Positions 14,732 through 48,800 of a stretch of 64,000 nucleotides of DNA are shown here, piece by piece. Position 1 is the first letter of the stretch; each line of letters starts with the position of its first letter. A program made the position numbers and the translations under genes. Under the pieces are notes generated by a model. That model saw only the letters and a list, made by a program, of their open reading frames with translations, was not told the DNA's origin and ran no database searches. This DNA comes from a virus, in the IMG/VR virus record IMGVR_UViG_3300025897_000012, positions 1 to 64,000 of that record. One strand, written 5' to 3'.

Positions 14732-15460
14732 AATTCCTGTTAATACTTTTTGGACTGACTGAGTTAAAGCTAGACGATAATCGTTGCTTTCTGAATTATG
14801 GTAATGTGATAATACTTCTGTTAATTTATCATCTCTTTCACAAAATTCTTTATAATCAATTATTTCATTAGGTAGATCTAAAGCTGAAAACATTTCTTCA
14901 ATTGTATGCTTTTCTCTGTTTGGAAAAAACTTTGTTATACAAGAATTTTCTTCTGCTATCTGTTTACGCATACGGTCATCGTCTTTATACCAAAAGTAAT
15001 GAGGGTATGAAATGTCCCAGCCGCCACATACATGCCACCATTCAAAACAGCTTTCATTACTCCGCTGTACACCTATAAACTTAGCATCTGGAAACATTTC
15101 TCTAAGAAAAGGAAGATGATAAGCAAACCAATGACTCTTAATTATTTTTTTACCAGGCTCCCAATTTTTAAATGGTTTTTTAAATTCTTCTACAATTTCT
15201 TCTTTAGTCAATGTATCTATTACATCAAACTTGCCGCCAAATTCATGATCAGGCCCCCAATACGCTCCTCTGTGCCATCCTCGAGCTGCTAATTTTCCTG
15301 TATTAGGATTGACTGCTATATGGTCATATATCCTATCAGTAGTTTCGTCAGATATATTAATATTAATGTTAGATGTTATCATACGCAATGTTCCGCTCCA
15401 TCTACTTCCAGGAGGGCCTGTTGCTATAATTAAATCTTTACCAGTATACTCTTCATACAT
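14726..15460 (-). CDS. Sulfotransferase-like protein A
   Basis: A 244-residue protein with a P-loop for the 5' phosphosulfate of PAPS, GPPGSRWSG (15-23), and a downstream segment IKSHWFAYHLPFLREMFP plus FIGVQRSNESCF, which matches the 3'-phosphate binding region of sulfotransferases (R and S of the QRSNES motif). It would transfer sulfate to a hydroxyl of a glycan or protein. The paralogue at 17223-17930 has the same layout. It is the last gene of a minus-strand unit and overlaps the SGNH hydrolase gene. Confidence 0.65.
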   Translation of the reverse strand: MYEEYTGKDLIIATGPPGSRWSGTLRMITSNININISDETTDRIYDHIAVNPNTGKLAARGWHRGAYWGPDHEFGGKFDVIDTLTKEEIVEEFKKPFKNWEPGKKIIKSHWFAYHLPFLREMFPDAKFIGVQRSNESCFEWWHVCGGWDISYPHYFWYKDDDRMRKQIAEENSCITKFFPNREKHTIEEMFSALDLPNEIIDYKEFCERDDKLTEVLSHYHNSESNDYRLALTQSVQKVLTGIL

Positions 15461-17222: not shown

Positions 17223-17930
17223 CTAAAAGTTATATTCACAAATATTAATATCAAGTACGTATCTTCCGTTAAAATTATTAACCTCTTTTGGTTGACTCTT
17301 TTCTAAAGAAGAAATGTAGAAATCTAAAAAGTCGTATTCTTCTTTAGACTCTAGTCCCCAACGATCTTTAAAATAATGCCTATCACAGACACTTAGTTTT
17401 AATCTATTATCGCCTACAAAGTTATTTGCTGCTGCTACTTCTTCATGTATTTTTTCTTTAAGTAAATCGTAATTTTTATAATATGTATGGTAATCAGGGT
17501 AATCTATAGATTCAAAGCCGCCTGCACCTTTCCATCCTCTAAAATTTTTAACTTCTGTTCGTAACACTAAAAATATTTTTGCTAATGGAAAAGTTTCTCT
17601 AATATAATCGAGTTGCAAACTAAAATGATGACTTTTAACAATCCTATACTTATCCCAAGATTTATCAGTATAAGCAGCATCTATTTCTGAAATTATTTCT
17701 TCTTTAGACAACGTATCTAATTGATCAAACTTCTTACCATGCTCGTTACCTGGACCCCAGTACGCTCCTAAATGTTGTACAGGTGATCTTGTGTGTGTAT
17801 AAACTCTATCATCCCTATGATCAGATATGTTAATAGGCATTATTTCATTTTTTGAAATAACATTAGATACTGCACTCCATTTACTTCCTGGGGCGCCTGT
17901 AAAGAATATCAGTTTACTTTCGTCGTACAT
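17223..17930 (-). CDS. Sulfotransferase-like protein B
   Basis: A 235-residue paralogue of the protein at 14726-15460. It has the P-loop TGAPGSKWSA (11-20), VKSHHFSLQLDYIRETFP, and FLVLRTEVKNFRGW, the order expected for a sulfotransferase 3'-phosphate site. Both paralogues also share GAYWGPxxEHGxKFD-type residues and a LSKEEI helix. They probably arose by duplication and flank an SGNH hydrolase and an oxygenase. An AATAAATA motif at 17952-17959 on the minus strand could serve as a late promoter. Confidence 0.65.
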   Translation of the reverse strand: MYDESKLIFFTGAPGSKWSAVSNVISKNEIMPINISDHRDDRVYTHTRSPVQHLGAYWGPGNEHGKKFDQLDTLSKEEIISEIDAAYTDKSWDKYRIVKSHHFSLQLDYIRETFPLAKIFLVLRTEVKNFRGWKGAGGFESIDYPDYHTYYKNYDLLKEKIHEEVAAANNFVGDNRLKLSVCDRHYFKDRWGLESKEEYDFLDFYISSLEKSQPKEVNNFNGRYVLDINICEYNF

Positions 17931-22410: not shown

Positions 22411-22438
22411 TAGGTAAATATAATAAAGGATGCTATTA

Positions 22439-23095
22439 ATGAATCATGATACAATAAAAGAATTTGAAGATTTAAGTAAAGAATATTTTAATGTGCCCGG
22501 ACATAAAAAATTAAGACAAGGACAGAAAAACAGATTACCAAAATATTCCTTTGTAGTAGAGAAGTTTAACAAAGAAGATAACATAGTCGATGCAGGTTGC
22601 GGTGGCAGTTACTTTAAAGGTATTTTTCCAAATTTAATTGCATTTGATATAGTCGACTACAATAATCAAGATTACGTTTGTAATATATTAGATGCTCCTA
22701 TACCAGAAGATAGCCAAGATGGAGTTTTTTGTTTTGGTGTACTACATGAATGTCCAGATGAATATCATCTACCTAATATAGAAAAAATGTTAACGTGGTT
22801 AAAGCCCAACGGACAATTAGTAATGAGATGTAAAGCTAAACTAGTTACAAACAAACATCGTAAAGAACGACTATATGAACGTAAGTATAATGAATACTTT
22901 GATCAAGGATTATGGAGTAGAGAAAGAATTGATCAATTTACACAACAATTAAATTTAAAACTTAATTGGGTTATACATAGAGAAACTCTACGAAAAGATC
23001 AACGAACTAATGTTAAAGGGACTAACTTTGATTCATCTCATGACAATGATGTAGTTTTTAACGGACATATCTGGAGTTGGAGTAAAAATGTTTAA
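22439..23095 (+). CDS. Class I SAM-dependent methyltransferase, tandem copy 1
   Basis: A 218-residue protein with motif I IVDAGCGGSYF, FDIVDY as motif II, and FGVLHECPDEYH plus LKPNGQLVMRCK as the C-terminal core. I chose the ATG at 22439, nine bases after AAAGG, over the ATG at 22430. The next gene is a close copy, with long near-identical stretches (for example around FPNLIAFDIVDY and GVFCFGVLHECPDE). Tandem duplication is evident. Substrate unknown. A late-like GGTAAATA lies at 22413-22420. Confidence 0.8.
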   Translation: MNHDTIKEFEDLSKEYFNVPGHKKLRQGQKNRLPKYSFVVEKFNKEDNIVDAGCGGSYFKGIFPNLIAFDIVDYNNQDYVCNILDAPIPEDSQDGVFCFGVLHECPDEYHLPNIEKMLTWLKPNGQLVMRCKAKLVTNKHRKERLYERKYNEYFDQGLWSRERIDQFTQQLNLKLNWVIHRETLRKDQRTNVKGTNFDSSHDNDVVFNGHIWSWSKNV

Positions 23096-23732
23096 AGAAT
23101 TTGAAGAAATCTCAAGAATATACTTTAGTGCTAATGGCAGTAGGGAATTACGCAGAGGTTCTAAAATTCATAAAAATACTAGTAATGATTTTTTATATTC
23201 TTTACCTAAAAATGCAAATGTTGTTGATGCTGGATGCGGGCCAAATGCGTTTAGAACTATTTTTCCAAATTTAATTGCTTTTGATATAGTTGATTATGGT
23301 AATCAAGATTATGTTTGTAATATATTAGAAGCACCTATACCAGAAAGTAGCCAAGATGGCGTTTTTTGTTTTGGTGTACTACATGAATGTCCAGATGAAT
23401 ATCATCTACCTAACATAGAAAAAATGCTATCTTGGTTAAAACCAGGTGGTAAACTAATAATGCGTTGTAAATCAAAAGAAGTAGTAGATAAACACCCTCG
23501 TAACAGTAATGCCGTTGGAGAAATGCATGAATATTTTGATCAGGGATTGTGGCCAATAGAAAGAGTTAATCAATTCACGCAACAATTAAATTTAACGCTT
23601 GATTGGATTGAGCCTAAAATAATAACACGTAAACAACAGTGGAATTCTAATCCTAAAAAACGTTTTCATTCGTCTCATGACAATGATATAATCTTTGATG
23701 GACATATTTGGTGTTGGAGTAAAAATGTTTAG
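23088..23732 (+). CDS. Class I SAM-dependent methyltransferase, tandem copy 2
   Basis: A 214-residue protein with VVDAGCGPNAF, FDIVDY, FGVLHECPDEYH and LKPGGKLIMRCK in the same order as the preceding gene. Its start overlaps the previous stop by eight bases. The N-terminal 40 residues and the C-terminal 60 differ most, so substrate choice may have diverged. The 3' end overlaps the small membrane protein gene by eight bases. The pair is a recent tandem duplication within a single transcription unit. Confidence 0.8.
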   Translation: MFKEFEEISRIYFSANGSRELRRGSKIHKNTSNDFLYSLPKNANVVDAGCGPNAFRTIFPNLIAFDIVDYGNQDYVCNILEAPIPESSQDGVFCFGVLHECPDEYHLPNIEKMLSWLKPGGKLIMRCKSKEVVDKHPRNSNAVGEMHEYFDQGLWPIERVNQFTQQLNLTLDWIEPKIITRKQQWNSNPKKRFHSSHDNDIIFDGHIWCWSKNV

Positions 23733-25322: not shown

Positions 25323-25964
25323 TTATTTTATACCAATTCTCATAAATCTTGTATAATTAACATGTTTACTTAGGTCTAATTCACCTTCATATAATATTTC
25401 TGATAGTGGTGCCATACTTGCAAAATCATCTAAATCGTTTACACAGTTAATATGTTCGTCTAATTCAAAGAAATTATTACTTTGTAGTATAACTAATTTA
25501 CCTGCAGGTATTTTATTATACCATTCATTAAAATTTGGAATATGTTCGCAACTAGTGTTTATAATTGTATCTGGCATATCTGTTAATTTTACTTTATTTC
25601 CTTTGTCATTTAATGTATCATATGTTAAAGGATAAGTTAAGTTAAAGATATCCAATGTTGTAGCTTTAAACTTCCATTCGTCTGTTAACCAAGGCATATT
25701 AAACTCCTCGGCTATTTCACAACAACTTTCATCTATATCAAAACTTCTAATTTTTGTAATAATTACTTTCGATTCAAATAACATAGTAGCTAATGTAGCA
25801 TACCAACCTGCACATAAAAATACTATTCCTAAATCAGGACAATGTTCTTGTACTTTTTCAACAAGCCATTCTTTACTTTTAATTTGACCATTAGATAAAC
25901 AATCTTTATTAAACTTAGGATTATCAAATACTCGATATATGCCGTTAATCAGTTGTGTTGTCAT
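25323..25964 (-). CDS. Class I methyltransferase-like protein
   Basis: A 213-residue protein with LGIVFLCAGWYATLATMLFE as a variant SAM-binding turn, IRSFDIDESCCEIAEEF as motif II with the acidic residue, and IINTSCEHIPNFNEWYNKIPAGKLVILQSNNF as the motif IV and post-III region. It belongs to a methyltransferase type I know from marine phages. It could act on the products of the glycosyltransferases in the same unit. It overlaps the end of the gene upstream by 20 bases. Confidence 0.65.
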   Translation of the reverse strand: MTTQLINGIYRVFDNPKFNKDCLSNGQIKSKEWLVEKVQEHCPDLGIVFLCAGWYATLATMLFESKVIITKIRSFDIDESCCEIAEEFNMPWLTDEWKFKATTLDIFNLTYPLTYDTLNDKGNKVKLTDMPDTIINTSCEHIPNFNEWYNKIPAGKLVILQSNNFFELDEHINCVNDLDDFASMAPLSEILYEGELDLSKHVNYTRFMRIGIK

Positions 25965-26988
25965 TAAATTTTCTTTCTAACCATTCAAAGTTGTTTATTT
26001 TTTTAAGAGCAGATGAATCATCTTTATATTTTTCTCCGTATTCTTTACCAGCAAGTGCTCCTGCAATACAGTAGTTTCCAAATGGCTTGTCTTTGCCTTT
26101 GGTACACCATTGTGTTAACCTAATTTCTGTCTCTTTATCTTCTTGTCCTTGTATAATCTTACTAGATAGTTTAACACACTCCCTAAATGCACTTTTCCAA
26201 GTGTTAAAAGGATCAGTATTAAACGTAGAAATGTTACTTACTTCGGGCATTGCTTTAAAACGCACACTAATGCTTGTGGTCATATCAGTGCTTGTAGTAT
26301 CTACATTTAAAGTTAATTTTCTTGGTAGTAATTTAACGCCGCCGTTTCCATATGTAAGTCTGTTTATAGGATTTAGACTACGCCAAACATACACAATATT
26401 CATTTCATCTTCACTAAGATAATTCATTGATGTAAAATCAAAGGTATCGTTTATACGAGCGTCTCCATCAACTACATAGAACATATGTGTTTTACATAAT
26501 TTTGCAGCTTCAATATGTGCTTGATGTATTCCTTTGACACCATGAACACGCTTTGCTGACGGTATCATGCTTAATAAATGTTTATAATTTTCTTCACAGT
26601 TTGGTTCTTTGTAGCTTATAAACACTATGTCATATTTAGATCTATATGGAGTACTAGCAACTATGTCTACTTCTTTTTTATTAATAAAAAATCTATACTG
26701 AGCTTCTCGAGGATGAATTTCTACTCTTTTAGGATATAAGCATATTCCGTCATACTTGCCAGCAGTATTTTTAAAAACATGTATAACTTTTTGATCCCAT
26801 TCTTCAGGAGTATAAGAAAAATCAAAGTCTTTTTTAACTAATGTGTCGTCCCATATAACCCAAAACATTTTTGTGACAACCATTGCCTGAGCTTCAGCAA
26901 AATTAGGAGCATATTTCAATCCAAAAAACTTATCTTTAAGTTCAGTATAGTGAGGAGTTTTTTCTCCAACAAAAATTATATCATACAT
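25945..26988 (-). CDS. Glycosyltransferase-like protein (GT-A type), paralogue 1
   Basis: A 347-residue protein. The first 110 residues form a separate N-terminal domain; the second part has YDIVFISYKEPNCEENYKHL followed by RVHGVKG and a VVDGDARI segment, in which D-G-D replaces the metal-binding DxD of GT-A enzymes. The paralogue at 34021-34956 shares the same YDVIYLSYDEPNAEKNY and VDGDNRI pattern without the extra domain. A consensus promoter ends five bases before its ATG, so its transcript should be leaderless. The sugar donor is unknown. Confidence 0.6.
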   Translation of the reverse strand: MYDIIFVGEKTPHYTELKDKFFGLKYAPNFAEAQAMVVTKMFWVIWDDTLVKKDFDFSYTPEEWDQKVIHVFKNTAGKYDGICLYPKRVEIHPREAQYRFFINKKEVDIVASTPYRSKYDIVFISYKEPNCEENYKHLLSMIPSAKRVHGVKGIHQAHIEAAKLCKTHMFYVVDGDARINDTFDFTSMNYLSEDEMNIVYVWRSLNPINRLTYGNGGVKLLPRKLTLNVDTTSTDMTTSISVRFKAMPEVSNISTFNTDPFNTWKSAFRECVKLSSKIIQGQEDKETEIRLTQWCTKGKDKPFGNYCIAGALAGKEYGEKYKDDSSALKKINNFEWLERKFNDNTTD

Positions 26989-26993
26989 TTCTT

Positions 26994-27022
26994 ATTATAT
27001 ACTCTTTTAGTTACTATGTCAA
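26994..27022 (-). promoter_or_regulatory. Consensus sigma70 promoter, leaderless start (minus strand)
   Basis: On the minus strand TTGACA (27022-27017) and TATAAT (26999-26994) are 17 bases apart, a perfect consensus. Only five bases separate the -10 box from the ATG at 26988. The -35 box overlaps the stop codon of the upstream gene. This gives the last two genes of the island a private early promoter. Confidence 0.8.
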
Positions 27023-28182
27023 CCATATCTTATTTCATCAAACAAATTTAAAAACAAAGGCATGTGAGATCTTTCTAAAAATTTTGCTCTATTTATTTTA
27101 CCAAATTTTCTCATTGTCTTTAGAGCAGTTTTTGTCTCTAATGAGTTTTTATTATTTTCTATTCTATTTAATTCATGACAAATTAAATCAGCACGTATAT
27201 CAAAGTCTAAATATGTATCATATTTTTCATTTATAAGATCATAGAAAGTAAAATATCCTAACTTATTAATATACTTTATTGTTTGTTGACATCCTAGTGC
27301 AATAAACGGTTTACCCATTACTATTAATTGCCATATACTGAGATTTGTAAATAAGGCATTTACTTCACTCATATAAATTCGGTGGTTGTCGGGTGCCCAA
27401 GGAGTTAATATTGTAAAAAGGCTATTAGAATGATAGTCTAACTTATCATCTTTATCAATAATTGTACCACGAGTATGCAAGTTATTCGATTCTAAAGATT
27501 TACGCAAGGCTAAGCAATTATCAGCTTTTGGAAATTCAGAATATGTATGATATAGTAGCTTAGGATTAAAAGTTTCCATATCATAGTCTTTGACTGGCAT
27601 AATCTTATTAATAGGTTCAAAGAAATTTGTGTATTTTTCGGTATTATTATTAATAATTAACTTAGCTTCTATTTGCCACCAATCAATACTGTATGACTTA
27701 TATGGTTGTAATAATTCTCTATAACTATTATTAACATCTGATGTAACAATTAGTATATTTTCTATTGGTACTTGACATCTCATAAACATTTCTGCTACAT
27801 GCCTAGTACGAATTACTTCATTATACCCCTGTAATGTCTGTCCTAGTATTAAAACTTTCATTTTTCCATCTCGTAAATGGTCTAATGTTTTATTTGGTAT
27901 ATTAATGTTTATTCCATAAGACACTTCAAATGGATAAAATACATAATCTTCTACTGTACTAAAAGGATTACCTATTACATCTCCTGTATATAACGTCATT
28001 TCACAATTATTTTTTTTCATTGTATAATAGAAACTAGAAATAACTTCAGTCATTGCATCTTTACTATCTGGCCATTTGCCATAAGGATAGGGCCAAGTGT
28101 CTTTATTAAAATTGTAACTAGTAATTCCGTTCGGTACAGGGCCGTCGTCTGTTATAATATCATAATAAAAATTAATCGACAT
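27019..28182 (-). CDS. Putative glycosyltransferase, GT-B-like, 387 aa
   Basis: The C-terminal part holds a segment around residues 280-330 with NALFTNLSIWQLIVMGKPFIALG and then QTIKYINKLGYFTFYDL, which matches the donor-site pattern of phage GT-B-like or exostosin-like proteins (a helix, a G-K/H-P-F-I turn, and L-x-x-L-G-x-x-T-F). The N-terminal part is rich in Tyr and Asn. The upstream radical-SAM gene overlaps its start by 11 bases. Function as a sugar transferase is inferred from this motif and from the neighbours. Confidence 0.5.
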   Translation of the reverse strand: MSINFYYDIITDDGPVPNGITSYNFNKDTWPYPYGKWPDSKDAMTEVISSFYYTMKKNNCEMTLYTGDVIGNPFSTVEDYVFYPFEVSYGININIPNKTLDHLRDGKMKVLILGQTLQGYNEVIRTRHVAEMFMRCQVPIENILIVTSDVNNSYRELLQPYKSYSIDWWQIEAKLIINNNTEKYTNFFEPINKIMPVKDYDMETFNPKLLYHTYSEFPKADNCLALRKSLESNNLHTRGTIIDKDDKLDYHSNSLFTILTPWAPDNHRIYMSEVNALFTNLSIWQLIVMGKPFIALGCQQTIKYINKLGYFTFYDLINEKYDTYLDFDIRADLICHELNRIENNKNSLETKTALKTMRKFGKINRAKFLERSHMPLFLNLFDEIRYG

Positions 28183-29455
28183 ATTCTTTTAACCACTGTT
28201 TCCATATTTCAGTAAACTTAGGATGAATTTTTGTAACATCTTGATTTCTAATTCTATCATATGTTAGTGTTCTTTTTACAAGGTGATTTCTATAACCCTT
28301 GTGTCTTTCAATTGTTTCAAGATCATCATACGGAGTGGTTAATCTACTTAAAATATGGTTTAATCGACTTATTCTTATTTGTTTATCAGTTAATAAAGGC
28401 AATCGTTTTTTTAAATCTTCTGCAATTTCTATTCTATACTCATAAGGAATAATGTCTAAAATTAAATCAATTGGTCCATTTACAGGATTGAATACAAAAT
28501 TTCCTCTTTTACCATGATCAATCCAGTAATCAAGTAATTTAGGCAATTCCCATGCATTGTAAACTTGTGCAGTAGCTAGAAAATGTACATGTATTTTAGG
28601 CATTGACAAGTAATGTTTATATGCTTTATCTAGTTGTTCCCAGTTTGCTCCATATCTAATATAATCGTTAGTATAACCTATACCGTCCATACTAAAGTGT
28701 AATTCAACTTGCTTAAATTTAGACAACAATGGCGTAACTTTACTCTTTATTCTACTTCCGTTAGTAGTAATATCTAAAACTAAGTGTGTGTTTCCGCTTT
28801 CTACACACCATTTTAATAGAGTATATACTCCAGGCATGAACAATGGCTCTCCGCCTGCTATTTTAATTGTGTGGAGATGTGGTATTTGTTTTTTTATACT
28901 TTCAAAACAAACTGGATCTTCTATCCATTCGTCTACATCTGTCCATTCTTCAAACATAATATCTTGTGTTTCAGGATGTGCTAACTGTTCTTTAGCTATT
29001 GTACTACTAATTGCACCAAAACACATTCTACAGCCAAAGTTACATAACCTACCAGGACGTAGATCTGACCATACTGGATATCCTGTAGTGTTTCCTTTTT
29101 CAATATCTATGTGTATAGGATCTGTTTTTTGCCTATTACTACGTATAAAATTAGTATTTTGACTTTCTCTATCAGAACCTCCACCCTCTCTATCTTGCTT
29201 GTAACAAGTTCCGCATCTACTTTCAAATTTACCCTCTAACATATTTTTTCTAACTTCTTGCATATCTTTTCCAGTCCAGATATCTTGAAGATCTTTTCCT
29301 TTAACATCATCTACGATATTATTGTTATAATCTCCTAAACAACATAAGTTTACAAATCCATTTGTAGCTACATATTGATGAGTAAACGGCATAGCACAAA
29401 ATGCAGGATTATTAGCAATTTGAGACTCAAAGTTTAAATCATAATTTTTTTTCAT
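28172..29455 (-). CDS. Radical SAM protein with N-terminal twitch domain (copy A)
   Basis: A 427-residue enzyme with an N-terminal twitch (half-SPASM) domain whose Cys are at 20, 38-39, 81 and 84 (CAMPF, LCCLGD, CGTC), then the radical-SAM core with CNFGCRMC (138, 142, 145) and IAGGEP. Radical-SAM enzymes cleave SAM with a 4Fe-4S cluster to start radical chemistry; the twitch domain binds an extra cluster. The same family occurs in phage and bacterial sugar or peptide modification loci. It is the fourth and last radical-SAM gene in a row and overlaps copy B by 17 bases. Substrate unknown. Confidence 0.85.
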   Translation of the reverse strand: MKKNYDLNFESQIANNPAFCAMPFTHQYVATNGFVNLCCLGDYNNNIVDDVKGKDLQDIWTGKDMQEVRKNMLEGKFESRCGTCYKQDREGGGSDRESQNTNFIRSNRQKTDPIHIDIEKGNTTGYPVWSDLRPGRLCNFGCRMCFGAISSTIAKEQLAHPETQDIMFEEWTDVDEWIEDPVCFESIKKQIPHLHTIKIAGGEPLFMPGVYTLLKWCVESGNTHLVLDITTNGSRIKSKVTPLLSKFKQVELHFSMDGIGYTNDYIRYGANWEQLDKAYKHYLSMPKIHVHFLATAQVYNAWELPKLLDYWIDHGKRGNFVFNPVNGPIDLILDIIPYEYRIEIAEDLKKRLPLLTDKQIRISRLNHILSRLTTPYDDLETIERHKGYRNHLVKRTLTYDRIRNQDVTKIHPKFTEIWKQWLKEYVD

Positions 29456-31682
29456 TACATTCCTCTATCATCTGTGCTACATCCGGCAATGATGTTTTCC
29501 AAGACTCGTTTCTAATTTTATCTAAACTTTCCATCCAAGGCCATAAACGGTTATACTCATTAGCATCAGGTTCTTTGTCCCATAAGTGCATTAATATACT
29601 TTTGCATCTTTGCTCAACCTTACGACAAAATGCTTTTTCATCTACACTATTATTCCATTTATCATTTATACGTTTTATAAAATTTTTATATTTTTTATCT
29701 ATATATCGTTTGTATTCTATAGGCAAGTTTTGTATATTAAGTGTAGCAGGTCCGTATAGATTATGTACAATTATAACAGGTTCAATCCGATTCCAATTTT
29801 GCTCTTTCATCCACCATTGCATTTCTGGATAATGTAAAACGTTTTGTAGACTTAAAGTAAGTGTAACACTAGCAATTAATCTTTCAAATCCTTGTTCCTT
29901 ATCAATCCTACGCATATTCTTTAGGACAGTACTAAATTTTCCTGGGTGTCGGATGTATTCAAAATGAGAATTAATACCGTCTATACTCATTCCTAAATTT
30001 ACTTGTTTAAAAGATTTCCATTGATCAAATACTTTGCTAGGAACACCTGCCATATTAGTATTATAATCTAACGTAACATTATTTGCTGTTCCTCTTTTTA
30101 TATAACAATCTAACAGTTCTCTATGTTTTAAATTTATAGTTGGCTCTCCGCCTGTAAAATAATACCTTTTAATTGTATCTAAATTATTCATAATATGCGA
30201 CCATAACTTTGTAAAAGTTTGATCTGGTTCAAAAAGATCAGGAACAGTATTTGTACCATCAGGTAAAGTTTCAATCTTAACTGTGTTATGCCCTCTATAA
30301 TTAAAAACTCCTGAAGGCTGTAACTTTACCCAATCATCATACCATAAATTACTATCAGTTGGTCCACAGCTTCTACACTTTAAATTACATTTATTACCAA
30401 ATCTTAAATCCATATATGTTATAGGGAATTCTTCATCTTTTATGGTTCCGTCTTTTTTAGTAAGTGTAACTGCTTTGTGATATACATCTTCATATAATTT
30501 TCTGGTCCACTGGCGTTTACTTCCTATCCCGTTTTGTTCTTCATTCGTACACAGTTTACATACTTCTGGATCAATGCCATTCAGCATTTCTTGTCTTAGT
30601 TTCTTCCATACAGGTGCATTTCTATGCTGTGTAACGTCATCTTTTCCTGTAAGCACAGTACCATCTTCTTTGTATACTGTACCATAAGGATCATTAATCA
30701 TTTGACAACACATGCGAATACTTCCATCAGCGTTTGTTGCTAAGTGATTCCATGCAATAGGACAAAATGCCTTCCATCTATCTTTGTTTACTAACATATT
30801 CTCCTGTGTTTTTTCTATTTTTTCTACAGGTTTATCTAATCTTAGTTTTAACAATGTTCTTATTTTTCTTCCTCGAGGGGTATCTATACTAGGAAGATCT
30901 TTCTTTAGCCATAGTGCTTCAAGAACTTCTTGATCTTTGTCATACTCTGCAACAATCGCCATAACCTCAACCGGACAATCTGGGTGTAAAACCATTTCAA
31001 TTCTTTCTTGTGAAGTACGAACAATATCTAAATCAAAAGACATAGGTTTTTGAGGCCACGTAAAATCAAAAGAAAAATTATTATTTTGTTTTATCCATTT
31101 GTCCATAGTTTTCTGGAACTTCTTTCTATCCAAAGTTGGAAATATATGCAGTAGCTGATCTGTTAATTTTACAGCAGAAATATTTAACTCGTCTAAGTTT
31201 ATAATATATGACTTTTTAAAATAATCAGTGTAATGACTTGTATTATCATGATCTCTTTTCATATTGTCTGAATGTCTTATCATCCAATGTTCAGTAAGGT
31301 TTTCTTGCTCTTTTAATTTTTGATATCCTAATTGTGCCCAGTAATTGTAATTACGAGTAATAACAAAACAGATAACAGTCATACTACTATCCCAGTATTC
31401 TTTAATAATGTTAGGATTATAACTGTGATAATGATCCTTGTACAGATCATACTTGTTAGGATCGTTTTCACCTTCATATATATGTTCTTTTTCGACTAAA
31501 GAATATTTTATTTTACAAAATGACTTCCATCTATTTGTGCCTATAGGCTGTGCTTCTTTTCTAGGTATTTTGTTAATTTCAGGTACACATTCGCTTAACA
31601 AACTAGTAATCATTTCGCCACCAGTTCCAGCAGAATATAATAAAAGATAATTATGATTGTTGTTGGAAGAATTTAATTTCAT
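29439..31682 (-). CDS. Radical SAM twitch protein with extra N-terminal domain (copy B)
   Basis: A 747-residue fusion. Residues 1 to about 295 form an extra domain that starts with LLLYSAGTGGEMITSLL, which resembles a P-loop of sulfotransferase-like proteins. Residues 303-378 are a twitch domain (C307, C325-326, C375, C378), and the core follows with CNLKCRSC (432, 436, 439) and TGGEP. The core is close to copy A, but the fusion is absent there. The N-terminal part may choose or modify the substrate. The start overlaps copy C by 32 bases, which implies coupled translation. Confidence 0.8.
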   Translation of the reverse strand: MKLNSSNNNHNYLLLYSAGTGGEMITSLLSECVPEINKIPRKEAQPIGTNRWKSFCKIKYSLVEKEHIYEGENDPNKYDLYKDHYHSYNPNIIKEYWDSSMTVICFVITRNYNYWAQLGYQKLKEQENLTEHWMIRHSDNMKRDHDNTSHYTDYFKKSYIINLDELNISAVKLTDQLLHIFPTLDRKKFQKTMDKWIKQNNNFSFDFTWPQKPMSFDLDIVRTSQERIEMVLHPDCPVEVMAIVAEYDKDQEVLEALWLKKDLPSIDTPRGRKIRTLLKLRLDKPVEKIEKTQENMLVNKDRWKAFCPIAWNHLATNADGSIRMCCQMINDPYGTVYKEDGTVLTGKDDVTQHRNAPVWKKLRQEMLNGIDPEVCKLCTNEEQNGIGSKRQWTRKLYEDVYHKAVTLTKKDGTIKDEEFPITYMDLRFGNKCNLKCRSCGPTDSNLWYDDWVKLQPSGVFNYRGHNTVKIETLPDGTNTVPDLFEPDQTFTKLWSHIMNNLDTIKRYYFTGGEPTINLKHRELLDCYIKRGTANNVTLDYNTNMAGVPSKVFDQWKSFKQVNLGMSIDGINSHFEYIRHPGKFSTVLKNMRRIDKEQGFERLIASVTLTLSLQNVLHYPEMQWWMKEQNWNRIEPVIIVHNLYGPATLNIQNLPIEYKRYIDKKYKNFIKRINDKWNNSVDEKAFCRKVEQRCKSILMHLWDKEPDANEYNRLWPWMESLDKIRNESWKTSLPDVAQMIEECNEKKL

Positions 31683-33048
31683 TATCGCTATATCCTACTA
31701 ATTCACTACTATTGTCTATTCCTCTAATAGGAACTAAACTGGTAGCGCCAATTTGTCTTCCGTTTGCACCGTTGTCAAAAATTCCAAGTTCTATAATTTT
31801 TTCATTAAATGATTGAGCTCTTTCTAACATACCCGGTGGTGTCATTAATTTAATCTCTAACCAAAAGTCATCATTTACACTTTTATGGTGATCAATTATA
31901 ATTTTACAATTTTCAATAAATCTTTGTTCGTTTCCTTTGTATAAATCCATACTACCAAAATGGGCACTCATATTTATACTGTTAATATACTGACATGCTT
32001 CTTTCCAATATTTTGTACTTCTACTTCCATTAGTAGTAACAAGTATCCATTGATCTCGTTCCTTTAAATGTTTTAGTATATCTAAAAACTTTGGATTCAT
32101 TGTTGGCTCTCCGCCCCCAAAGTTCCATCTTATACTAGCACCTTTACTCCATGTATCTATTGCTTTATCTATAGTTTCAATAATTTTATTATATGAGTGA
32201 TGTTCTTCTGTATTATTATGAACACTTGGCCAACAGTAGTCACAATCGTAATTACAACGTCTAGTAATGTCCCATAAAATTTGATACTCAATTGGAAAAT
32301 TCATTTCTATTCCAACAGGAATAGTATCAAATGCTATGTGTGGATTTTTTACTGCATCTTGTAATTGTCCTTTGTCTTGTCCATCATACCCATATTTTGT
32401 TACATTTAAATTTTCTAAAGCTAACTCGTCTTTAGCTTTACTTAAAATTACATCGGCTCCACAACCACAACTTGTTAACGGACATGTAGTCCATTTTTTA
32501 GGAGCTTCCCATCCTGTAAAAATACTACCTTGTAATCCCCATACTTTAGTATCTTTTTGTGCTTTCCACTGCCAAGTTGCTGGATCTTTCATAAACTGTT
32601 TGTAAGGATCGTCAAAAAATATTTTTTCTAACCTTCCAATTTCTGCCATTAATTTATGTTGCTGTTCACTGTTCTTGTAATCATGCTTGGGCATAGGCCA
32701 ACCGTTTTCAGTATTAGCATTTATCCAATCTTTACGTTTATCACTGCCGTCTGCTCCTATAATAGATTCTCTATATTCTTGCCATTGCCTATCTATTAAC
32801 TTTGGATCTTGATTCGTATAGGTTGTTACACGCTGATCATGAACTTTACCGTAATGAGATGCACTTGCACAATTTGCAATCCATACATTACCATCATAAT
32901 CTATGTATAAACTTCGCACTCCAGCACTACACTTCCAATCTTTCCATTTGTTTAAGTTATTTGCAATTACTTCATCAACACTAAAAAGACTATACTGATT
33001 ATTTTTGTTATAAATTCTAAGTTGTTTATTGTCTGTAGGTTGATCCAC
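31651..33048 (-). CDS. Radical SAM protein with SPASM-like domain at the N-terminus (copy C)
   Basis: A 465-residue protein. The core lies in the C-terminal half, with CNYDCDYC (265, 269, 272) and FGGGEP. The N-terminal half has Cys at 40, 60, 189, 194 and 196. The spacings C40-C60 (20) and C189-C194-C196 (5 and 2) equal those of the C-terminal SPASM-like domain of copy D (C260-C280, C304-C309-C311), so this domain appears to have been moved to the front, with about 105 extra residues between. It starts at GTG directly after the copy D stop, with AAGGAG nine bases upstream. The order of domains is unusual for the family. Confidence 0.8.
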   Translation of the reverse strand: MDQPTDNKQLRIYNKNNQYSLFSVDEVIANNLNKWKDWKCSAGVRSLYIDYDGNVWIANCASASHYGKVHDQRVTTYTNQDPKLIDRQWQEYRESIIGADGSDKRKDWINANTENGWPMPKHDYKNSEQQHKLMAEIGRLEKIFFDDPYKQFMKDPATWQWKAQKDTKVWGLQGSIFTGWEAPKKWTTCPLTSCGCGADVILSKAKDELALENLNVTKYGYDGQDKGQLQDAVKNPHIAFDTIPVGIEMNFPIEYQILWDITRRCNYDCDYCWPSVHNNTEEHHSYNKIIETIDKAIDTWSKGASIRWNFGGGEPTMNPKFLDILKHLKERDQWILVTTNGSRSTKYWKEACQYINSINMSAHFGSMDLYKGNEQRFIENCKIIIDHHKSVNDDFWLEIKLMTPPGMLERAQSFNEKIIELGIFDNGANGRQIGATSLVPIRGIDNSSELVGYSDNEIKFFQQQS

Positions 33049-34017
33049 TTATACACGCTCCTTCTTACTCATTATATCAAAGTTACAATGACAATAGCTT
33101 TTATTGCATATAACAGGATCAATAGGCCATGCTATGTTATCAGGATCTTTCATATTTCCTAAAGAACCACCAACACGGCACCAACCAATCATTACAGTTC
33201 CATCAAAGTCTACAACAATCTGTTCAACGCCACTATAACACTTCCAGCCCTCCCAGTTGTTAGTATTTTCAGCAATAAATCTATGTGCGGCACTATTTTT
33301 TGTTTTACCTGTTACTGTATCAATCATATCCATACTGCCTCTATAAAGTTTAAAGTTGTTGCTTTCTTCAGTATACTTTATATGTTTTCCAAAATCTTGC
33401 CATTGCCTATCAATAACATCAAGTTGGTCTTGTGTGTAAGGAAATCGTTCATTACCAAAGTCGATTACAAGCGGTTGCAACGCTAAACTAAAATTTTCAG
33501 CTTCTTTAACTAATCTTTTTGTAAGATTTACTCCATTATTAAATCTATCTTTATCAGTATGCATCATAATGTTTACATGAGTTCTACAAACCTTTGACAT
33601 AATTTTTACTACTTCTAAAAAGTGGCCTGCTTCTGCACTTTCAGGATGAAAACTTAAACAAACATGATCAAAATTATTTTTATTCTTTTCCCACCAACGA
33701 ATAGTTCTACTAGCGTTACTAATAAATCCTATATCGTGTCCTTTAGACTTAATGTACTGAGCACACTTTATAAAATCTTTCCATAAAGTTACTTCGCCTC
33801 CAGTAAACTCAAAATAAACTTTCCTTGGAGCATAATGTGTTTCACAAGCATCAATAAATTTTTTAATTACTTTAAAATCTTGCCAACCAAAACTACCATT
33901 ATTTAAAATAGGAGGACAGTAACTACAGGTATAGTTACACATGTTTCCTAAATTCCAGTTTACAACAACCCAGTCTTTAGCTTCTTTATGATGATGGTCT
34001 AAGATATTATATTGCAT
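33049..34017 (-). CDS. Radical SAM protein with C-terminal SPASM-like domain (copy D)
   Basis: A 322-residue protein with a standard N-terminal radical-SAM core: CNYTCSYC (27, 31, 34), FTGGEVTLW (71-79) and a strand pattern of a partial TIM barrel. The C-terminal part carries five Cys (260, 280, 304, 309, 311) that would bind an auxiliary cluster. It is the first of four radical-SAM genes in the unit and follows a glycosyltransferase gene by three bases. Such enzymes can modify peptides or sugars. I found no short precursor peptide nearby, so a sugar or protein substrate is the simpler guess. Confidence 0.85.
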   Translation of the reverse strand: MQYNILDHHHKEAKDWVVVNWNLGNMCNYTCSYCPPILNNGSFGWQDFKVIKKFIDACETHYAPRKVYFEFTGGEVTLWKDFIKCAQYIKSKGHDIGFISNASRTIRWWEKNKNNFDHVCLSFHPESAEAGHFLEVVKIMSKVCRTHVNIMMHTDKDRFNNGVNLTKRLVKEAENFSLALQPLVIDFGNERFPYTQDQLDVIDRQWQDFGKHIKYTEESNNFKLYRGSMDMIDTVTGKTKNSAAHRFIAENTNNWEGWKCYSGVEQIVVDFDGTVMIGWCRVGGSLGNMKDPDNIAWPIDPVICNKSYCHCNFDIMSKKERV

Positions 34018-34020
34018 ATA

Positions 34021-34956
34021 TTATTTCTTTCCTAATCCGCTTATTCCTCTGTGTCTATCAACACGATCAGGTTGTCGGTAAATTGTTTTAAAGAATTTAC
34101 TAGCACCTTGAGAGAACGGTTCTTTGTCTATAGGTATTTGAAGTTCATTAATTAATTTTGTTCCGTAATTTGTAGATAATTCTAAAATTTTATCTTCAGG
34201 TATGTCTGCAAATTCTTCTTCCCATAAATTATTTAAATATTTAAAATCTCGTACATTAATGTAATTCCAATCTGTACACATTGTTTTATATACTGCGGCT
34301 CTAGTTCCTAATATAGCCCAGTTTCCGTTTTCTACATCTGCGCCAACCATTGCCCAAATATACATCCAATGTAGACATCTCCAATGAAGATTTAAATATT
34401 CTTCTTTGTTTGGTTTTATACCTTGATTAAGAGATAATTTAACTCCTTCTCTAAACCCAGCTCTCCATGCTTGTTGAGGAGTTTCGTTATTATATACATC
34501 TGAAAAACAACTATTCATTTGTACATATTTTAAATCCCAACAAAAATCTACTTGAGCAGCTATGTTATTTGGATCTGCATTTTCGTGTGTCCGCATATTT
34601 AATACATGTTGTTTAGGCCAACATTTTAAGCCGCCGTTTCCATATAGTAATCCGTTAATAGTATTTTTTCCTGCCCAGCTTATTACAGAATTTTCTAACT
34701 CAACATCATCATCAAAACTAATTTCTTCTTTTAAAAAATCATTTTTAATTCTGTTGTCGCCGTCTACTGTAATAAAGCGATCAGTTTCTGATAATTCTGC
34801 ACAGGCTTTGTGTGCCGCGTCACTACCGTCTACCCCGTGTACACGTTTTGCCCACGGAACTTTAGTTAAGAGATCTGCATAGTTCTTCTCAGCATTAGGT
34901 TCATCATAACTTAGATAAATTACGTCATAATCTAGTACTTTAAATTTATTAGACAT
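34021..34956 (-). CDS. Glycosyltransferase-like protein (GT-A type), paralogue 2
   Basis: A 311-residue protein with DYDVIYLSYDEPNAEKNYADLL, AKRVHGVDG and TVDGDNRI (Asp65-x-Asp67 as a likely metal site), the same order as the protein at 25945-26988. Later segments NTINGLLYGNGGLKCWP and CFSDVYNNETPQQAWRAGFREGVKL are also shared. The two genes flank the radical-SAM block and probably come from one duplication. Sugar transfer is the inferred activity; donor and acceptor are unknown. Confidence 0.6.
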   Translation of the reverse strand: MSNKFKVLDYDVIYLSYDEPNAEKNYADLLTKVPWAKRVHGVDGSDAAHKACAELSETDRFITVDGDNRIKNDFLKEEISFDDDVELENSVISWAGKNTINGLLYGNGGLKCWPKQHVLNMRTHENADPNNIAAQVDFCWDLKYVQMNSCFSDVYNNETPQQAWRAGFREGVKLSLNQGIKPNKEEYLNLHWRCLHWMYIWAMVGADVENGNWAILGTRAAVYKTMCTDWNYINVRDFKYLNNLWEEEFADIPEDKILELSTNYGTKLINELQIPIDKEPFSQGASKFFKTIYRQPDRVDRHRGISGLGKK

Positions 34957-34960
34957 ATAA

Positions 34961-35542
34961 TTATTCCTTTACAACGTGATAAAAGATTTCATTAATAACA
35001 GGACAATACAAACTTATATTGTCTAGTATGACTAAAGAATCATTATCACACTTGATATCAAACATTTTCTTTTTAGTAAATTTTCTCATATCTATAAATA
35101 GTTCTCCTATTAAGATATTAGGGTTATGTTCTTGTGTAATATACACTCGTTTGATTTGACTTAAATATTTATTTGTCTCTAGGTTGTTACGTATTAGGTC
35201 TGAAACTTGTGCCTTTGCTTGCCATTTTTTCTTTTTTTTGTCTTGAAAGATATAGAATGATTTTGGATCATATTTAGAGATTTTATCTAAAACTGTAATT
35301 TCATGAATACTTTTATCAACATCAAAATTTTCAGGAGCATCTTTTCTTACAAGCTCTGGAGGATCTGTACTTGTTATATTTGTAACTTTGCAAATATAGT
35401 CAACAAGATTAGCTTTGCCTGAAACAAATTTAACATACTCTTCTTTAGAAATCACAATATAAGGTTTATCTTCATTCAATTCATTTGTAACTGATAATAA
35501 TTGTCCTGAAACATCATCATAATATACATAAAATGAAAACAT
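34961..35542 (-). CDS. Hypothetical protein, 193 aa
   Basis: The product begins MFSFYVYYDDVSGQLLSVTNE and has a KKKKKWQAKA basic patch in the middle and hydrophobic C-terminal strands. I see no membrane segment or enzyme motif. It lies between two glycosyltransferase-like genes and overlaps one by one base, so it is part of the unit. A role as an accessory or structural protein is possible. I do not recognise a family. Confidence 0.65.
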   Translation of the reverse strand: MFSFYVYYDDVSGQLLSVTNELNEDKPYIVISKEEYVKFVSGKANLVDYICKVTNITSTDPPELVRKDAPENFDVDKSIHEITVLDKISKYDPKSFYIFQDKKKKKWQAKAQVSDLIRNNLETNKYLSQIKRVYITQEHNPNILIGELFIDMRKFTKKKMFDIKCDNDSLVILDNISLYCPVINEIFYHVVKE

Positions 35543-36375
35543 TACAATAACTCCAATCTATCAACTATTCTATCAGTTAAAAATTCTGGCTCTACGTAAT
35601 GTAATATATTACGTTGTAAAAAATTACCAATTAACATAGTTTTATCATTAGTTAAGTATCCGCCTAATACTGTAGTCCATTTTTCTGGCACTTCATGCCA
35701 ATTTTGACAATGAGGTTTCATATGGGTAAATGTTATAAAAGAATTAGAATCAGTTATTTCAAGAGTATTATTTAATATTTTACTTACAATACTACAACTT
35801 AAATCCATACTACACCATTTTTGATAATAGTTACTTGCAAACTTTCCGTAAAATAATTCCCAATTTATCATAACTATTTCTAAAAGTTTAAAAAATTCAT
35901 GTGCAACATCTCCTTTTTTAAAATAATAAAATGCACTATATAAATTAGGCAAATTATTTTCATTAAAGGTTTTTCTATAGTACACTGAATCTACAATTTC
36001 ATTTCGATAATTCTTTACATTACTTACAAAAAATAAATCTCTCTTTTTAAGTTCTGTCCACCAATGTGTAATATCATGTAACACTAACATATCTACATCC
36101 ATAACAATGGTATGATCATATGGAGATGCATGATATACTTTCCATCTATTTTCAATTTTCCAGTCTGTTTCTTGTGCTTGGTCAGTCCACGGTATTTTTA
36201 TAATTTTATCAAATACTGGTCTATACTTCGTAGGAACTTCATCGTTAGTAACCAAAGATACATTTTGATCTTTATTAAACTTATGTATACTTACTGCAAG
36301 AGCATATGCTTGCTTAATATAATCTACAGTAGCATTATTCTGTGCTAGTAAACAAAAACCTTCACTCATTTGCAA
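35542..36375 (-). CDS. Glycosyltransferase-like protein (GT-A/GT8-like), paralogue 3
   Basis: A 277-residue protein with EGFCLLAQNNATVDYIKQAYALAVSIHKF as the first Rossmann strand and helix, VSLVTND, and DHTIVMDVDMLVLHD, in which Asp93-x-Asp95 is a standard DxD metal motif. The following gene (36362-37231) has the same layout. Both would transfer a sugar from a nucleotide donor. The C-terminus has a WCSMDLSCSIVSKIL helix. The start overlaps the next upstream gene by 14 bases. Confidence 0.65.
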   Translation of the reverse strand: MQMSEGFCLLAQNNATVDYIKQAYALAVSIHKFNKDQNVSLVTNDEVPTKYRPVFDKIIKIPWTDQAQETDWKIENRWKVYHASPYDHTIVMDVDMLVLHDITHWWTELKKRDLFFVSNVKNYRNEIVDSVYYRKTFNENNLPNLYSAFYYFKKGDVAHEFFKLLEIVMINWELFYGKFASNYYQKWCSMDLSCSIVSKILNNTLEITDSNSFITFTHMKPHCQNWHEVPEKWTTVLGGYLTNDKTMLIGNFLQRNILHYVEPEFLTDRIVDRLELL

Positions 36376-37231
36376 ACTCTTTATCGCTATCTATTGCTCT
36401 ACTTAAACTAAATTTATTCATTACATGTACGTTTGAGTCTTCTACTGTTACTCCTACATAATAACCACCGCTACTAGTATAGTCGCAAATAAAAGATAAT
36501 TTATCACCATCTACAGAATGTAACATATCTGCATCAGATGCCATATACATATTACCTGGCATTTTTATAGGCCAATTTGGGTTAAGTTGAAATCCTCGTA
36601 AAATATGTATTGCTATACTAAACGAAAAGTCGTTTCTATAAGTGCTATGTGGAATTTGATATATTAGTCTATAATATGGCCAGTTGTCTTTTATGTGTTG
36701 TATTAATTCAAAATACATTTTCATAAACGGTGTCTTCTTAAAGTAAAAACCTGTAGCCCACCACATATCAATTGAACGGTCGCTTATCCTATCAAATTTT
36801 TGTATCTTTCTTAATGTACTAGCAATATCTGTTGGATTTCTGTATATTAAAAAGTCTTGATTTAATTTAAAACAGTTTAATAAACTATCATTGCCAATAA
36901 TATAGTCTGCATCTAATACTATAGTTTCATCAAATGGTGTTAGGTTATAACAGTCTGGACGACTGTGATTTTTCCACGGTAGTTTTCTTATAGAATATAC
37001 TCCATCTAAGAATCTTTTTGTTTGAGGTGTAAAAACTTCAGGAATATCTATTATTTGGTCTATATATTTTTCAAAGAAAGGAAATCGTTTTGTAAGATAA
37101 TTACGATTGTCAGTTACTACTGCAACTGGTAATTTTAAATGATTTTTAATTTTCTTTGCACAAAATATTGCTTGTTTGATATAATCAACATCTTTATTAT
37201 TAAGTGCAAAGAGCAATACTCCTTGCGTCAT
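36362..37231 (-). CDS. Glycosyltransferase-like protein (GT-A/GT8-like), paralogue 4
   Basis: A 289-residue protein that begins QGVLLFALNNKDVDYIKQAI, parallel to the start of the preceding paralogue, and has ETIVLDADYIIGNDS with Asp107-x-Asp109 as the metal motif, and a DRSIDMWWATGFYFKK acceptor-side segment. The two genes overlap by 14 bases and clearly derive from one duplication. It overlaps the 115-residue gene by four bases. It probably adds a sugar to a virion or host surface target; this is inferred. Confidence 0.65.
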   Translation of the reverse strand: MTQGVLLFALNNKDVDYIKQAIFCAKKIKNHLKLPVAVVTDNRNYLTKRFPFFEKYIDQIIDIPEVFTPQTKRFLDGVYSIRKLPWKNHSRPDCYNLTPFDETIVLDADYIIGNDSLLNCFKLNQDFLIYRNPTDIASTLRKIQKFDRISDRSIDMWWATGFYFKKTPFMKMYFELIQHIKDNWPYYRLIYQIPHSTYRNDFSFSIAIHILRGFQLNPNWPIKMPGNMYMASDADMLHSVDGDKLSFICDYTSSGGYYVGVTVEDSNVHVMNKFSLSRAIDSDKEFANE

Positions 37232-37575
37232 ATGTTAAGAATACCTTCTACTGATCTATTTTTTTTAATTTCGTTAAATTTTTGTAAATATTCATTCATG
37301 TTTTTTGAATATATACTAAGTATTTCATCTAAAAAATCTTCTAGTTCTTTAACTTCAATTGGTGTATTATTATCATCTAATAGAATTGCATCTTTTTGGC
37401 CGTTTTGAATTAGTGTATGACAAAAATTAATAATATCTCTATTAACATTAAACTTACCACCGTTTACATAATGTACACAATTTTCTAAAAACTTTTCGTG
37501 AATAAGATTACGTTGATTGTTTAACGTAATCATAAGATTGGAAAAATCTAATGCTTTTTCTAGTCTATCATCCAT
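37228..37575 (-). CDS. Conserved T4-like phage hypothetical protein, 115 aa
   Basis: A small protein with MDDRLEKALDFSNLMITLNNQRNLIHEKF, VNGGKFNV and a later ILLDDNNTPIEVKELEDFLDEIL, a pattern I recognise from T4-like marine phages, where it is unassigned. It is mostly helical. It is the first gene of the 25.3-37.6 kb unit, with an AAAGGAGT ribosome site and a near-consensus sigma70 promoter. Its conservation suggests a core phage role rather than a role in sugar transfer. Confidence 0.8.
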   Translation of the reverse strand: MDDRLEKALDFSNLMITLNNQRNLIHEKFLENCVHYVNGGKFNVNRDIINFCHTLIQNGQKDAILLDDNNTPIEVKELEDFLDEILSIYSKNMNEYLQKFNEIKKNRSVEGILNI

Positions 37576-37600: not shown

Positions 37601-37629
37601 AGTATATACTAAAAAAAGCGATTTGTCAA
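37601..37629 (-). promoter_or_regulatory. Sigma70-type promoter for the glycosyltransferase/radical-SAM unit
   Basis: On the minus strand TTGACA (37629-37624) and TATACT (37606-37601) are 17 bases apart. The first ATG (37575) is 25 bases further on with a good ribosome site. It probably drives at least ten genes as one early unit and sits between this unit and the late virion genes. Confidence 0.75.
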
Positions 37630-45792: not shown

Positions 45793-45800
45793 TATTTATC
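45793..45800 (-). promoter_or_regulatory. Late promoter motif (GATAAATA, minus strand)
   Basis: GATAAATACA on the minus strand, about 20 bases before the ATG at 45773. It lies inside the end of the giant gene. Confidence 0.55.
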
Positions 45801-48800
45801 GAGGTAGGTCAACACTTGTAGCTCGTAAGAATCTACCTATATCAGTATCTGCTTGGCTAAGTGCTATACCTGGATCTGTCCATTGTTTTCCTTGTTTTCT
45901 TATTATAATAACCTTTTGATTTTCGCCTGGCGTAGTTAATAACGATAATGTACTACCTAAAATTGAAAATTCTGCTGGTAATATTTCGTCACCTTCTGGG
46001 CTATCTTGGGCTATACTGCTTGTTTTTACACCATTTATAGTAGTTTCAAACTTATAAGAAGAAATTGAATTTTTTCTTAATCTCTTTCCTGCTACAAATA
46101 CATCAAACTCGTTAACTCCGCCTGTTCCTGGTGTAAAGTCTAAATCAAACGTAGAACTTGTGCCGTCTGCTGTAAATACTGTACTAATTGTTTCATCTTT
46201 ATATGGTATTGATGCATTAATACTTTGATCATATACTTCTGTACCACTTGTATGCAAATCATTTACTCCTGTACCTAACGTACCTCTTTGTAACTGTTTA
46301 AGTAAATTTCCTTCTTTAATTCTATACTCAATTCTTTCACCGTTAACAAATATAATTCCTGGATACTCTGATCCTGCTGTTGGATCAGTTATTCCACTAG
46401 CGTCAACTAATTCTATTGTTTTATCGTAAGGTGTTAAATCTTTTCCAAGAATATAGTTTTTATCTCCATCTATTCTCTTGTAATGTGTTCTGTTAAGCAT
46501 ATCCTTAAATTGTCTAAATCCAAATTTAGTAATTACTGTTGGATTACCAAAATGTAATACTTCTATTCTATCACCTTGGTTTAAAGGACTTACTAATTTA
46601 ATAAAATTCTTGTCTGTAGTAACACTATAGTCTACATCTGCAAGTAAAAGTTTGTTATTTAATATTACCCAAACATATTTAGAATCAACTGCTGGACTTC
46701 TTAATTTAAATAATCCTGCACGTAAATTATTTAAGAAATAGTATTCAGGTGTACCTTTTGTAATTGGTGTATTCTCTTGGACTTGATAAGATTCTCTTTC
46801 AAATTTTTGAGCTGTACTATTACTAAACTGATAAACTTTCATTCTAGTTCCAATTGGCCTATCTACTTCAAAAGAACAAATAGTTGGCGTTGGAACAAAT
46901 ACGTTTGATGAATCACCTTGTTGTTCAAAGTAACCAAATCTATATTGACTTTCAGTAATAATGTATACTAATAACGTATCTCCAGCTACACCAATGTTAT
47001 CTGAAAGTTTTACTGTGTTGCCTTTTTGTTGATCTAAAGGCGTATCACTATCAAATGCTTCAGCTGATGTAAATGTCCAGTCTGTTGCATACTCTAACAT
47101 TCTACCATTTAGGTAAACTTGAATCTGTGAACTTTGTACTAATGCAATAGGTATTTGCCAAAGGTCTAATTTATAATCTCTTGCTGACGAAACCGTAAAC
47201 TGCTGATTAAACCCAGAATGTAAAATATCATCTCCTATTTGTACAAGTGTGTGTATGCCTGCAGGACCGTATGAGAAAGGTGCTTGACTTAATACAAGTG
47301 TATCGTTTCCTTGTGGAGTTGTAGCAATAAATTCATCTACTACTACTTGACTAAATGAATCTAATTCAGATCCGTCACCAATAAACAATGCAAATCTAAC
47401 AACGTCTCCTGCCTTTAACGGAGAAGCTAATACTAGTTCAACATTGTTTGGATGCGATCCTGTACTTTTTACAAATACAGATTCTAATTTTTTACCATCA
47501 CATGTTGCAATACCTTGAACATTATCAGTCCATCGTACATTTGTTTCAAAGCTATTTGAACTGCCATCACTTACAAAACTATCTATATCTAAAATTTGCA
47601 AGCCTGCTACTTCAACAAGTGTTAAATTAATTTTAGAACCTTCTGCTGGTGCAACTTCAAAGTCTACAGTTTTATTAACATAGTTTACTGTATAACCTAA
47701 AGTTGAATCATCTGTAGTAGGTTCAAGTATATCAGAGCCTACTTTTACAAATAATGAACTTCCAGTAAATGGCGTCTTTCCTAAATCAAACGATTTAGTA
47801 GATCCATCACCATTATAATTTCTATTTACAACTATACTACTTCCGCCAACTGGTCTTTCAAAAACACTTATATCAACAGAGTCTAAAACTTGTCCTGGAA
47901 CGATTTCTTCAGGACCTTTGCTTGTAGTAGGAGTAACAAACCCGTCACCGTCTACAGTAATATCTTCTGACTTTAAACCTGTAGCTGAATTGTAAGCAAG
48001 TGTGCCGCCAACTATTGAAGTATCATAACTTTCAGGGTCGTTAATAAAACTACCATCACTTGTTTCTTTTCTTACAATAATTGTATCATCAACTTGAGTT
48101 GGTACTTCTAACTCTTGTAATTCTATAACTGTAGTTGTGCCGTCACCAGTAATGCTTTGCATTATTGCATTAGGATTTTTTACTAGTGCTGAATCGTATC
48201 CTGGTTCTGGTGCCCAGTTTGGATCGTCTAATCTTATACCGTTTCGATATAAATTATAAACTACTCCATTTTCTAAAGGCTTGCTTAACGTAATACTTAT
48301 TGTACTGCCATCAAGTTTGAATACTTCATCTTCGTATGTAGTATCGTATGTATCCCAGGTATCAGTATACCAAGGAGCTGAGTCCCAACCAGTGTTACCT
48401 CCAAATTCAAAACTTTTTACTTCTACTCCGCCGTAATCAATACCGTCCATAACTTGTGATAAATCATTACCAAACTGTCCAGCAATTGGATTGTATGATA
48501 AGTTAACTCTATCTGCTGCTGTTAGATATTCAATTGGTTTTTTATATTTTATTACTATAGAAGAATTACTTGCTGGTGGTTTAGTAAATGTAACTCTACC
48601 AAAATATCTATCATATCCTTTTGTAGTATCTTTTATATTTTCATATGTATATTCACTTTGTAAAGAAAGTTCACCTGCAATAGTTATTTCTACAGTATTT
48701 GTTTTTAAGTCCATTGGAAAGATTAAATCAAATACATAAGAACTACCTGATCCAACAAATGTCTGCGATTCACTTAGTTTAGTTACTACAAATTTTCCTA

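Follow-up and report, generated by a model that had tools for sequence, protein, structure and literature searches.

Four distinct radical-SAM enzymes are encoded side by side with glycosyltransferases in a tightly packed unit of ten genes in the window analysed here, which covers 64 kb of a virus record 79,754 bases long, and the same module recurs in dozens of uncultured phages. The recurrence of this module in phages, together with the surface-glycan and flagellin contexts of its bacterial counterparts, suggests that its probable role is to make an uncommon, modified sugar carried by a surface structure.

Organization of the ten-gene unit

The unit and its flanks comprise the following features:

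37601..37629, minus strand: sigma-70-like promoter TTGACA-17-TATACT (11/12), upstream of the ten-gene unit
37228..37575, minus strand: first gene (ORF), 115 aa, no useful Pfam or PHROG match
36362..37231, minus strand: GT8-like glycosyltransferase, 289 aa, DAD at 107 (family profile, motif)
35542..36375, minus strand: GT8-like paralogue, 277 aa, DVD at 93 (phrog_1903, E 1e-8; family profile)
34961..35542, minus strand: 193-aa protein (ORF) between the GT8 and GT-A genes
34021..34956, minus strand: putative glycosyltransferase of GT-A fold, 311 aa, DGD at 65-67 (predicted structure)
33049..34017, minus strand: gene A, 322 aa, radical-SAM core and C-terminal five-Cys domain
31651..33048, minus strand: gene B, 465 aa, GTG start, N-terminal five-Cys domain followed by radical-SAM core
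29439..31682, minus strand: gene C, 747 aa, N-terminal domain of about 300 aa (GTGGE motif) and twitch radical-SAM part
28172..29455, minus strand: gene D, 427 aa, twitch/SPASM radical-SAM enzyme
27019..28182, minus strand: 387-aa protein (ORF) after D, also present in the closest relatives
26994..27022, minus strand: perfect sigma-70-like promoter match TTGACA-17-TATAAT, in the 30-base gap before the gene at 25945
25945..26988, minus strand: second GT-A-like gene, with an N-terminal extension, 36% identical to the gene at 34021 over 214 aa

The ten minus-strand genes (37575-27019) are spaced by -32 to +4 bases according to their ORF coordinates. As initially described, genes A to D and the flanking genes of the unit all lie on one strand, and the radical-SAM genes abut (A/B) or overlap (B/C by 32, C/D by 17 and D with the gene at 27019 by 11 bases). 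Each of the four carries an intact CxxxCxxC core, namely CNYTCSYC (27-34) in A, CNYDCDYC (265-272) in B, CNLKCRSC (432-439) in C and CNFGCRMC (138-145) in D, along with further cysteines. These four proteins were the sole matches in a PF04055 profile search of the whole record.

The sigma-70-like site before the unit ends 25 bases ahead of the first start codon. A match of 10-12/12 is kept in 20 of 21 closer relatives (those with gene A at least 66% identical and the first gene of the unit present), the exception being locus L020, and most distant relatives (gene A about 50% identical) lack a promoter-like match there. The T4-type late promoter motifs TATAAATA and CTAAATA did not occur above their counts in shuffles. 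The conserved site and the lack of a late-motif excess suggest that the unit may be expressed early or middle. Of the early promoters first proposed, the promoter-like site itself thus stands, while early timing is a reading of these two features.

Several other genes of the window lie outside the unit. On the plus strand, an ORF that reads as QueE-like (162-1142; no Pfam match at E 0.01) has a first motif CNFRCMNF, in which the third Cys is replaced, and a later Cys in HTGCDTYAS. Tricarboxylate transporter genes are present in this phage at 18821-21325 (+), where a TctA-family gene (PF01970, 326 bits) is followed by a gene that reads as a TctC-type binding protein and has no Pfam match. Also on the plus strand are a small SET-domain gene (3996-4328; PF00856, 45 bits), a short AMP-binding, acyl-CoA synthetase-like gene of 248 aa (13985-14731; PF00501, 52 bits) and two adjacent methyltransferase-like paralogues, 61% identical, that form a tandem duplication (22430-23732). 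On the minus strand, two paralogues (14726-15460 and 17223-17930; 40% identical) have weak sulfotransferase matches, the one tested being below the cut-off, and a single ORF of 5183 aa (45796-61347), probably structural, lies upstream of tail-fibre-like genes.

Radical-SAM enzymes and glycosyltransferases

In profile comparison of the four enzymes, C and D fall within the twitch-domain family NF033640 and A and B outside it. The family cut-off of 170 bits is exceeded by D (304 bits) and by the radical-SAM half of C (327 bits), C differing from the family in its additional N-terminal domain of about 300 aa. PF04055 matches C above its cut-off and D at 28.2 bits, just under the cut-off of 29.5, and the SPASM model PF13186 matches D at 33.5 bits. 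The N-terminal domain of C occurs as a separate ORF in other phages; a sulfotransferase identity considered for it was dropped, Pfam and PDB profile searches having given nothing. C and D are 23% identical and fall into different clades of the twitch-enzyme tree, and A and B are about 25% identical, so an origin of the four genes by recent duplication was rejected.

Both A and B exceed the PF04055 cut-off, and no named radical-SAM subfamily fits either of them above cut-off in the profile search. They score 24 (A) and 39 bits (B) against NF033640 (N_Twi_rSAM), and 46 (A) and 62 bits (B) against the viperin model NF038283; a viperin identity was dropped because both scores are far under that family's cut-off of 180 bits. 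PF13186 has no match in A, B or C. In gene A, the core residues C27, C31 and C34 together with C260, C280, C304, C309 and C311 are invariant among 58 distinct sequences, and the corresponding five cysteines of B are C40, C60, C189, C194 and C196. The two proteins share the pattern W-x-C-x19-C...C-x4-C-x-C with the domain order reversed between them, and the genome G151, from a bacterium, has an ORF for a radical-SAM core (locus L135, 14295-15047) next to a 118-aa ORF with the five-Cys pattern (15044-15400). Judged by this pattern, it is one auxiliary domain, found behind the core in A, in front of it in B and alone in G151, and it probably binds an Fe-S cluster. The reversed order and the free-standing form in one bacterium provide a useful case of domain shuffling.

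In a PDB sequence search, A matches the peptide epimerase EpeE/YydG best, over the core alone (E 1e-5). The AF2 model of A (pLDDT 83.6) matched BlsE, EpeE, SuiB, SkfB, MoaA and viperin at similar E-values; since sugar-nucleoside, peptide and other enzymes are matched alike, the fold does not choose among sugar, peptide and nucleotide substrates. The solved structures of EpeE/YydG, BlsE and SpeY have the radical-SAM core fold in common with A, but at TM values of about 0.3-0.5 and identities of about 15% their substrate class is not transferable. In a Foldseek search against viral models, proteins of Campylobacter phages and of uncultured phages proved structurally related to A. Sequence searches of cultured phages with A, B and the GT-A gene returned no homologue at E<=1e-5 and, at relaxed limits, matches at noise level only.

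The two GT8-like proteins have a DxD motif, and their family profile matches glycogenin (E about 2e-5); a Pfam search with the single window proteins gave no match. The initial annotation of flanking GT-A-like paralogues is borne out by the predicted GT-A fold of the protein at 34021 and by its paralogue at 25945. The model of the former (pLDDT 88.3) has the GT-A enzymes SunS, TarP, RmlT and WrtF as top Foldseek matches, with TM of only about 0.3, and its D65 and D67 are invariant. In locus L080 and its kin, the GT-A domain is fused to an A-type enzyme. A long protein with FDFSWHPDPxxPxYIYxFG-type repeats in loci L071 and L077 (17396-21160) also matches the GT-A-like gene at 25945. The protein at 27019-28182 had been called GT-B-like, a label that is unsupported because Pfam, PHROG and PDB sequence searches give no match and no GT family for it.

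Occurrence in phages and Bdellovibrionota

Gene A occurs at about 45-90% identity in some 100 IMG/VR contigs; scanning viral contigs with it confirmed 103 relatives, of which 80 were kept. The recurrent order is a small gene, GT8, GT8, (a small gene), GT-A and A, followed by twitch and B-type enzymes, and it holds also in contigs of 229-525 kb. Among the 41 loci whose flanks exceed 7 kb on the upstream and 8 kb on the downstream side of A, twitch enzymes were found in 39, GT-A in 33, the GT8 pair in 32, B in 29 and a B12 radical-SAM enzyme in 27. In 37 of these loci, four or more radical-SAM genes lie between -1.5 and +10 kb relative to A. Because the loci were picked for the presence of A and are related by descent, the counts express constancy and not independent events. 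Some loci, such as L041, L045 and L057, have A without these glycosyltransferase genes, and the link to glycans is therefore not universal. The B12-binding domain was Pfam-confirmed in one member of the B12 radical-SAM family (L026); the window record, which may be incomplete, has no B12-dependent radical-SAM enzyme. Whole-record PF04055 counts ranged from 2 to 12 in 17 phage records.

Of the 63 distinct viral loci, about 43 have a gene of 101-115 aa (two families) in the place of the first gene, and about 43 have fibre-like structural genes ahead of the cassette. No conserved short precursor-like ORF was found near A among ORFs of at least 50 aa in the 63 loci. Among cultured phages, the baseplate-wedge-like gene has its nearest matches in jumbo myophages, with about 31-35% identity. 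Compared with three relatives, A to D have pN/pS values of 0.09-0.41, with synonymous sites near saturation, indicating that purifying selection acts on all four genes. The layout is thus not confined to this record.

In bacteria, scanning genomes with A gave two loci; searches at class level brought in further loci, most of them distant. In a Bdellovibrionaceae MAG (L089), A and B sit between two flagellins; in L116, two flagellins adjoin two twitch genes, an A-like gene and a gene that reads as B-like, and a carbamoyltransferase lies about 3 kb away; and in L129, a twitch enzyme lies between two flagellin-like genes, one of them with a listed PF00669 match. In L090, L095 and L096, the series A, twitch, B, twitch adjoins an ABC-2 exporter pair, a GT1 gene and a weak Stf0 sulfotransferase match, a setting of polysaccharide export. 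Pfam matches back the identification of the flagellin, carbamoyltransferase, ABC exporter and GT1 genes. Most loci among the Bdellovibrionia twitch matches listed are not beside flagellins; flagellin was consequently rejected as a general neighbour of these enzymes, and the flagellin link rests on L089, L116 and L129. By rough, uncomputed estimates, two loci with a flagellin link out of roughly a dozen of the A type in the class would exceed chance, and three out of all twitch loci would not. Phage and bacterial members are intermixed in a tree built from 76 twitch enzymes, the label changing at least 10 times, so genes have moved between phages and bacteria. At least seven twitch radical-SAM genes stand in a row in each of two Bdellovibrionia loci (L132, 4236-14018; L135, 5469-17996), the row in L132 coming after genes that read as ATP synthase subunits.

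Possible functions and comparison with known systems

The reading to which we give about an even chance is that the module assembles a glycan and uses radical chemistry to alter it, the carrier being a surface polymer or a filament protein that belongs to the host or the virion. A glycan is chosen because of the gene partners and the genomic contexts. The GT8-like and GT-A-like transferases would build or lengthen a short glycan, while different radical-SAM enzymes, several in number and each with an auxiliary Cys (probably Fe-S) domain, presumably acting in series, would make C-H changes on sugars or on a sugar-bearing protein. The putative reactions include oxidation, epimerisation or a change of the carbon skeleton, and C-methylation where relatives have the B12 radical-SAM enzyme. 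The target would most likely be a surface polymer or filament, either a host cell-surface glycan, by which a receptor might be blocked or altered, or the virion fibres. The stepwise pathway for a sugar, surface glycan or protein proposed at the outset gains from the four distinct enzymes, their placement in one operon with glycosyltransferases, the conserved order and the surface-glycan and glycoprotein neighbours; its GT-B component is unsupported. A more far-reaching reading, less likely than not, is a multi-step radical-SAM pathway conserved between Bdellovibrionota and uncultured phages. Its product would be a new kind of glycan, modified by radical chemistry and borne by a surface polymer or filament, which would be flagellin in the bacteria and the host surface or the tail fibre in the phages.

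Alternatively, the radical enzymes may modify a protein directly (a fibre, flagellin or other protein) by epimerisation, crosslinking or a side-chain change, with the glycosyltransferases acting on the modified protein or being separate neighbours. Peptides are frequent substrates of twitch/SPASM enzymes, and the EpeE/YydG match of A, the fibre-like genes before the cassette and the flagellin neighbours in bacteria are consistent with such a role. However, no conserved short precursor-like ORF was seen in the cassette among ORFs of 50 aa and up, glycosyltransferase genes are among its most constant partners, and the polysaccharide-export and carbamoyltransferase contexts suit sugars better. 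Direct protein modification is considered rather unlikely. It is improbable that these are unlinked auxiliary metabolic genes gathered in a variable host-recognition island tolerant of foreign genes. The unit does adjoin tail-fibre-like genes, the host-recognition clusters of pelagimyophages gain radical-SAM cassettes (PMC7029224), and the twitch-enzyme tree mixes phage with bacterial branches; yet the GT8-GT8-GT-A-A order recurs over contigs of tens to hundreds of kb, and translational packing, domain fusions and purifying selection favour one unit. Synthesis or alteration of a small nucleotide or nucleoside, viperin-like or deazaguanine-like, is very improbable, for although the cores of B and A match viperin models and structures and a QueE-like gene lies elsewhere in the window, A and B score far under the viperin cut-off and the auxiliary domains and glycosyltransferase partners fit poorly.

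Radical-SAM-rich phages have been noted since 2010, with their function never assigned. The Campylobacter phages CP220 and CPt10 have 11-12 radical-SAM genes each, five of them in one exchangeable module with no function given (PMC2853527). Like the window, they group many radical-SAM genes in a phage; however, a putative glycine amidinotransferase is the partner described there, with no GT8/GT-A cassette (PMC2853527), and the sequence likeness of Campylobacter phage radical-SAM proteins to A is at noise level (E 0.03-3), some folds matching. T4-superfamily phages rich in radical-SAM genes offer a second comparison: one Tara T4-like marine genome holds 12 of them (PMC5332604), and in pelagimyophages a host-recognition island by the tail genes has radical-SAM cassettes and GT8 (PMC7029224), no product being given in either case. 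Compared by description, these two papers describe neither the gene-level layout nor the A and B families nor a pathway. Searches of the open-access literature found no paper on this layout. The initial view that no such phage pathway had been described is partly right: no description of the layout and no assigned product was found, while radical-SAM-rich phage clusters as such have been published (PMC2853527, PMC5332604, PMC7029224), all without a product.

A cultured comparison is with Vibrio phage K566 (OZ196521), in which two GT8 genes, scoring above the PF01501 cut-off, and a GT4-like gene alternate with four twitch enzymes. The genome has six NF033640 matches, two of them above the cut-off, and no gene A was found in the radical-SAM/GT8 region examined. 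K566 resembles the window in combining twitch enzymes with GT8 or GT8-like genes, but the arrangement differs. The constant partners (GT8, GT-A and often a B12 radical-SAM enzyme), the promoter-like site and the bacterial counterparts narrow the vague idea of a metabolic boost to a testable one, namely phage-encoded modification of a surface glycan or glycoprotein, which the K566 island makes it possible to test.
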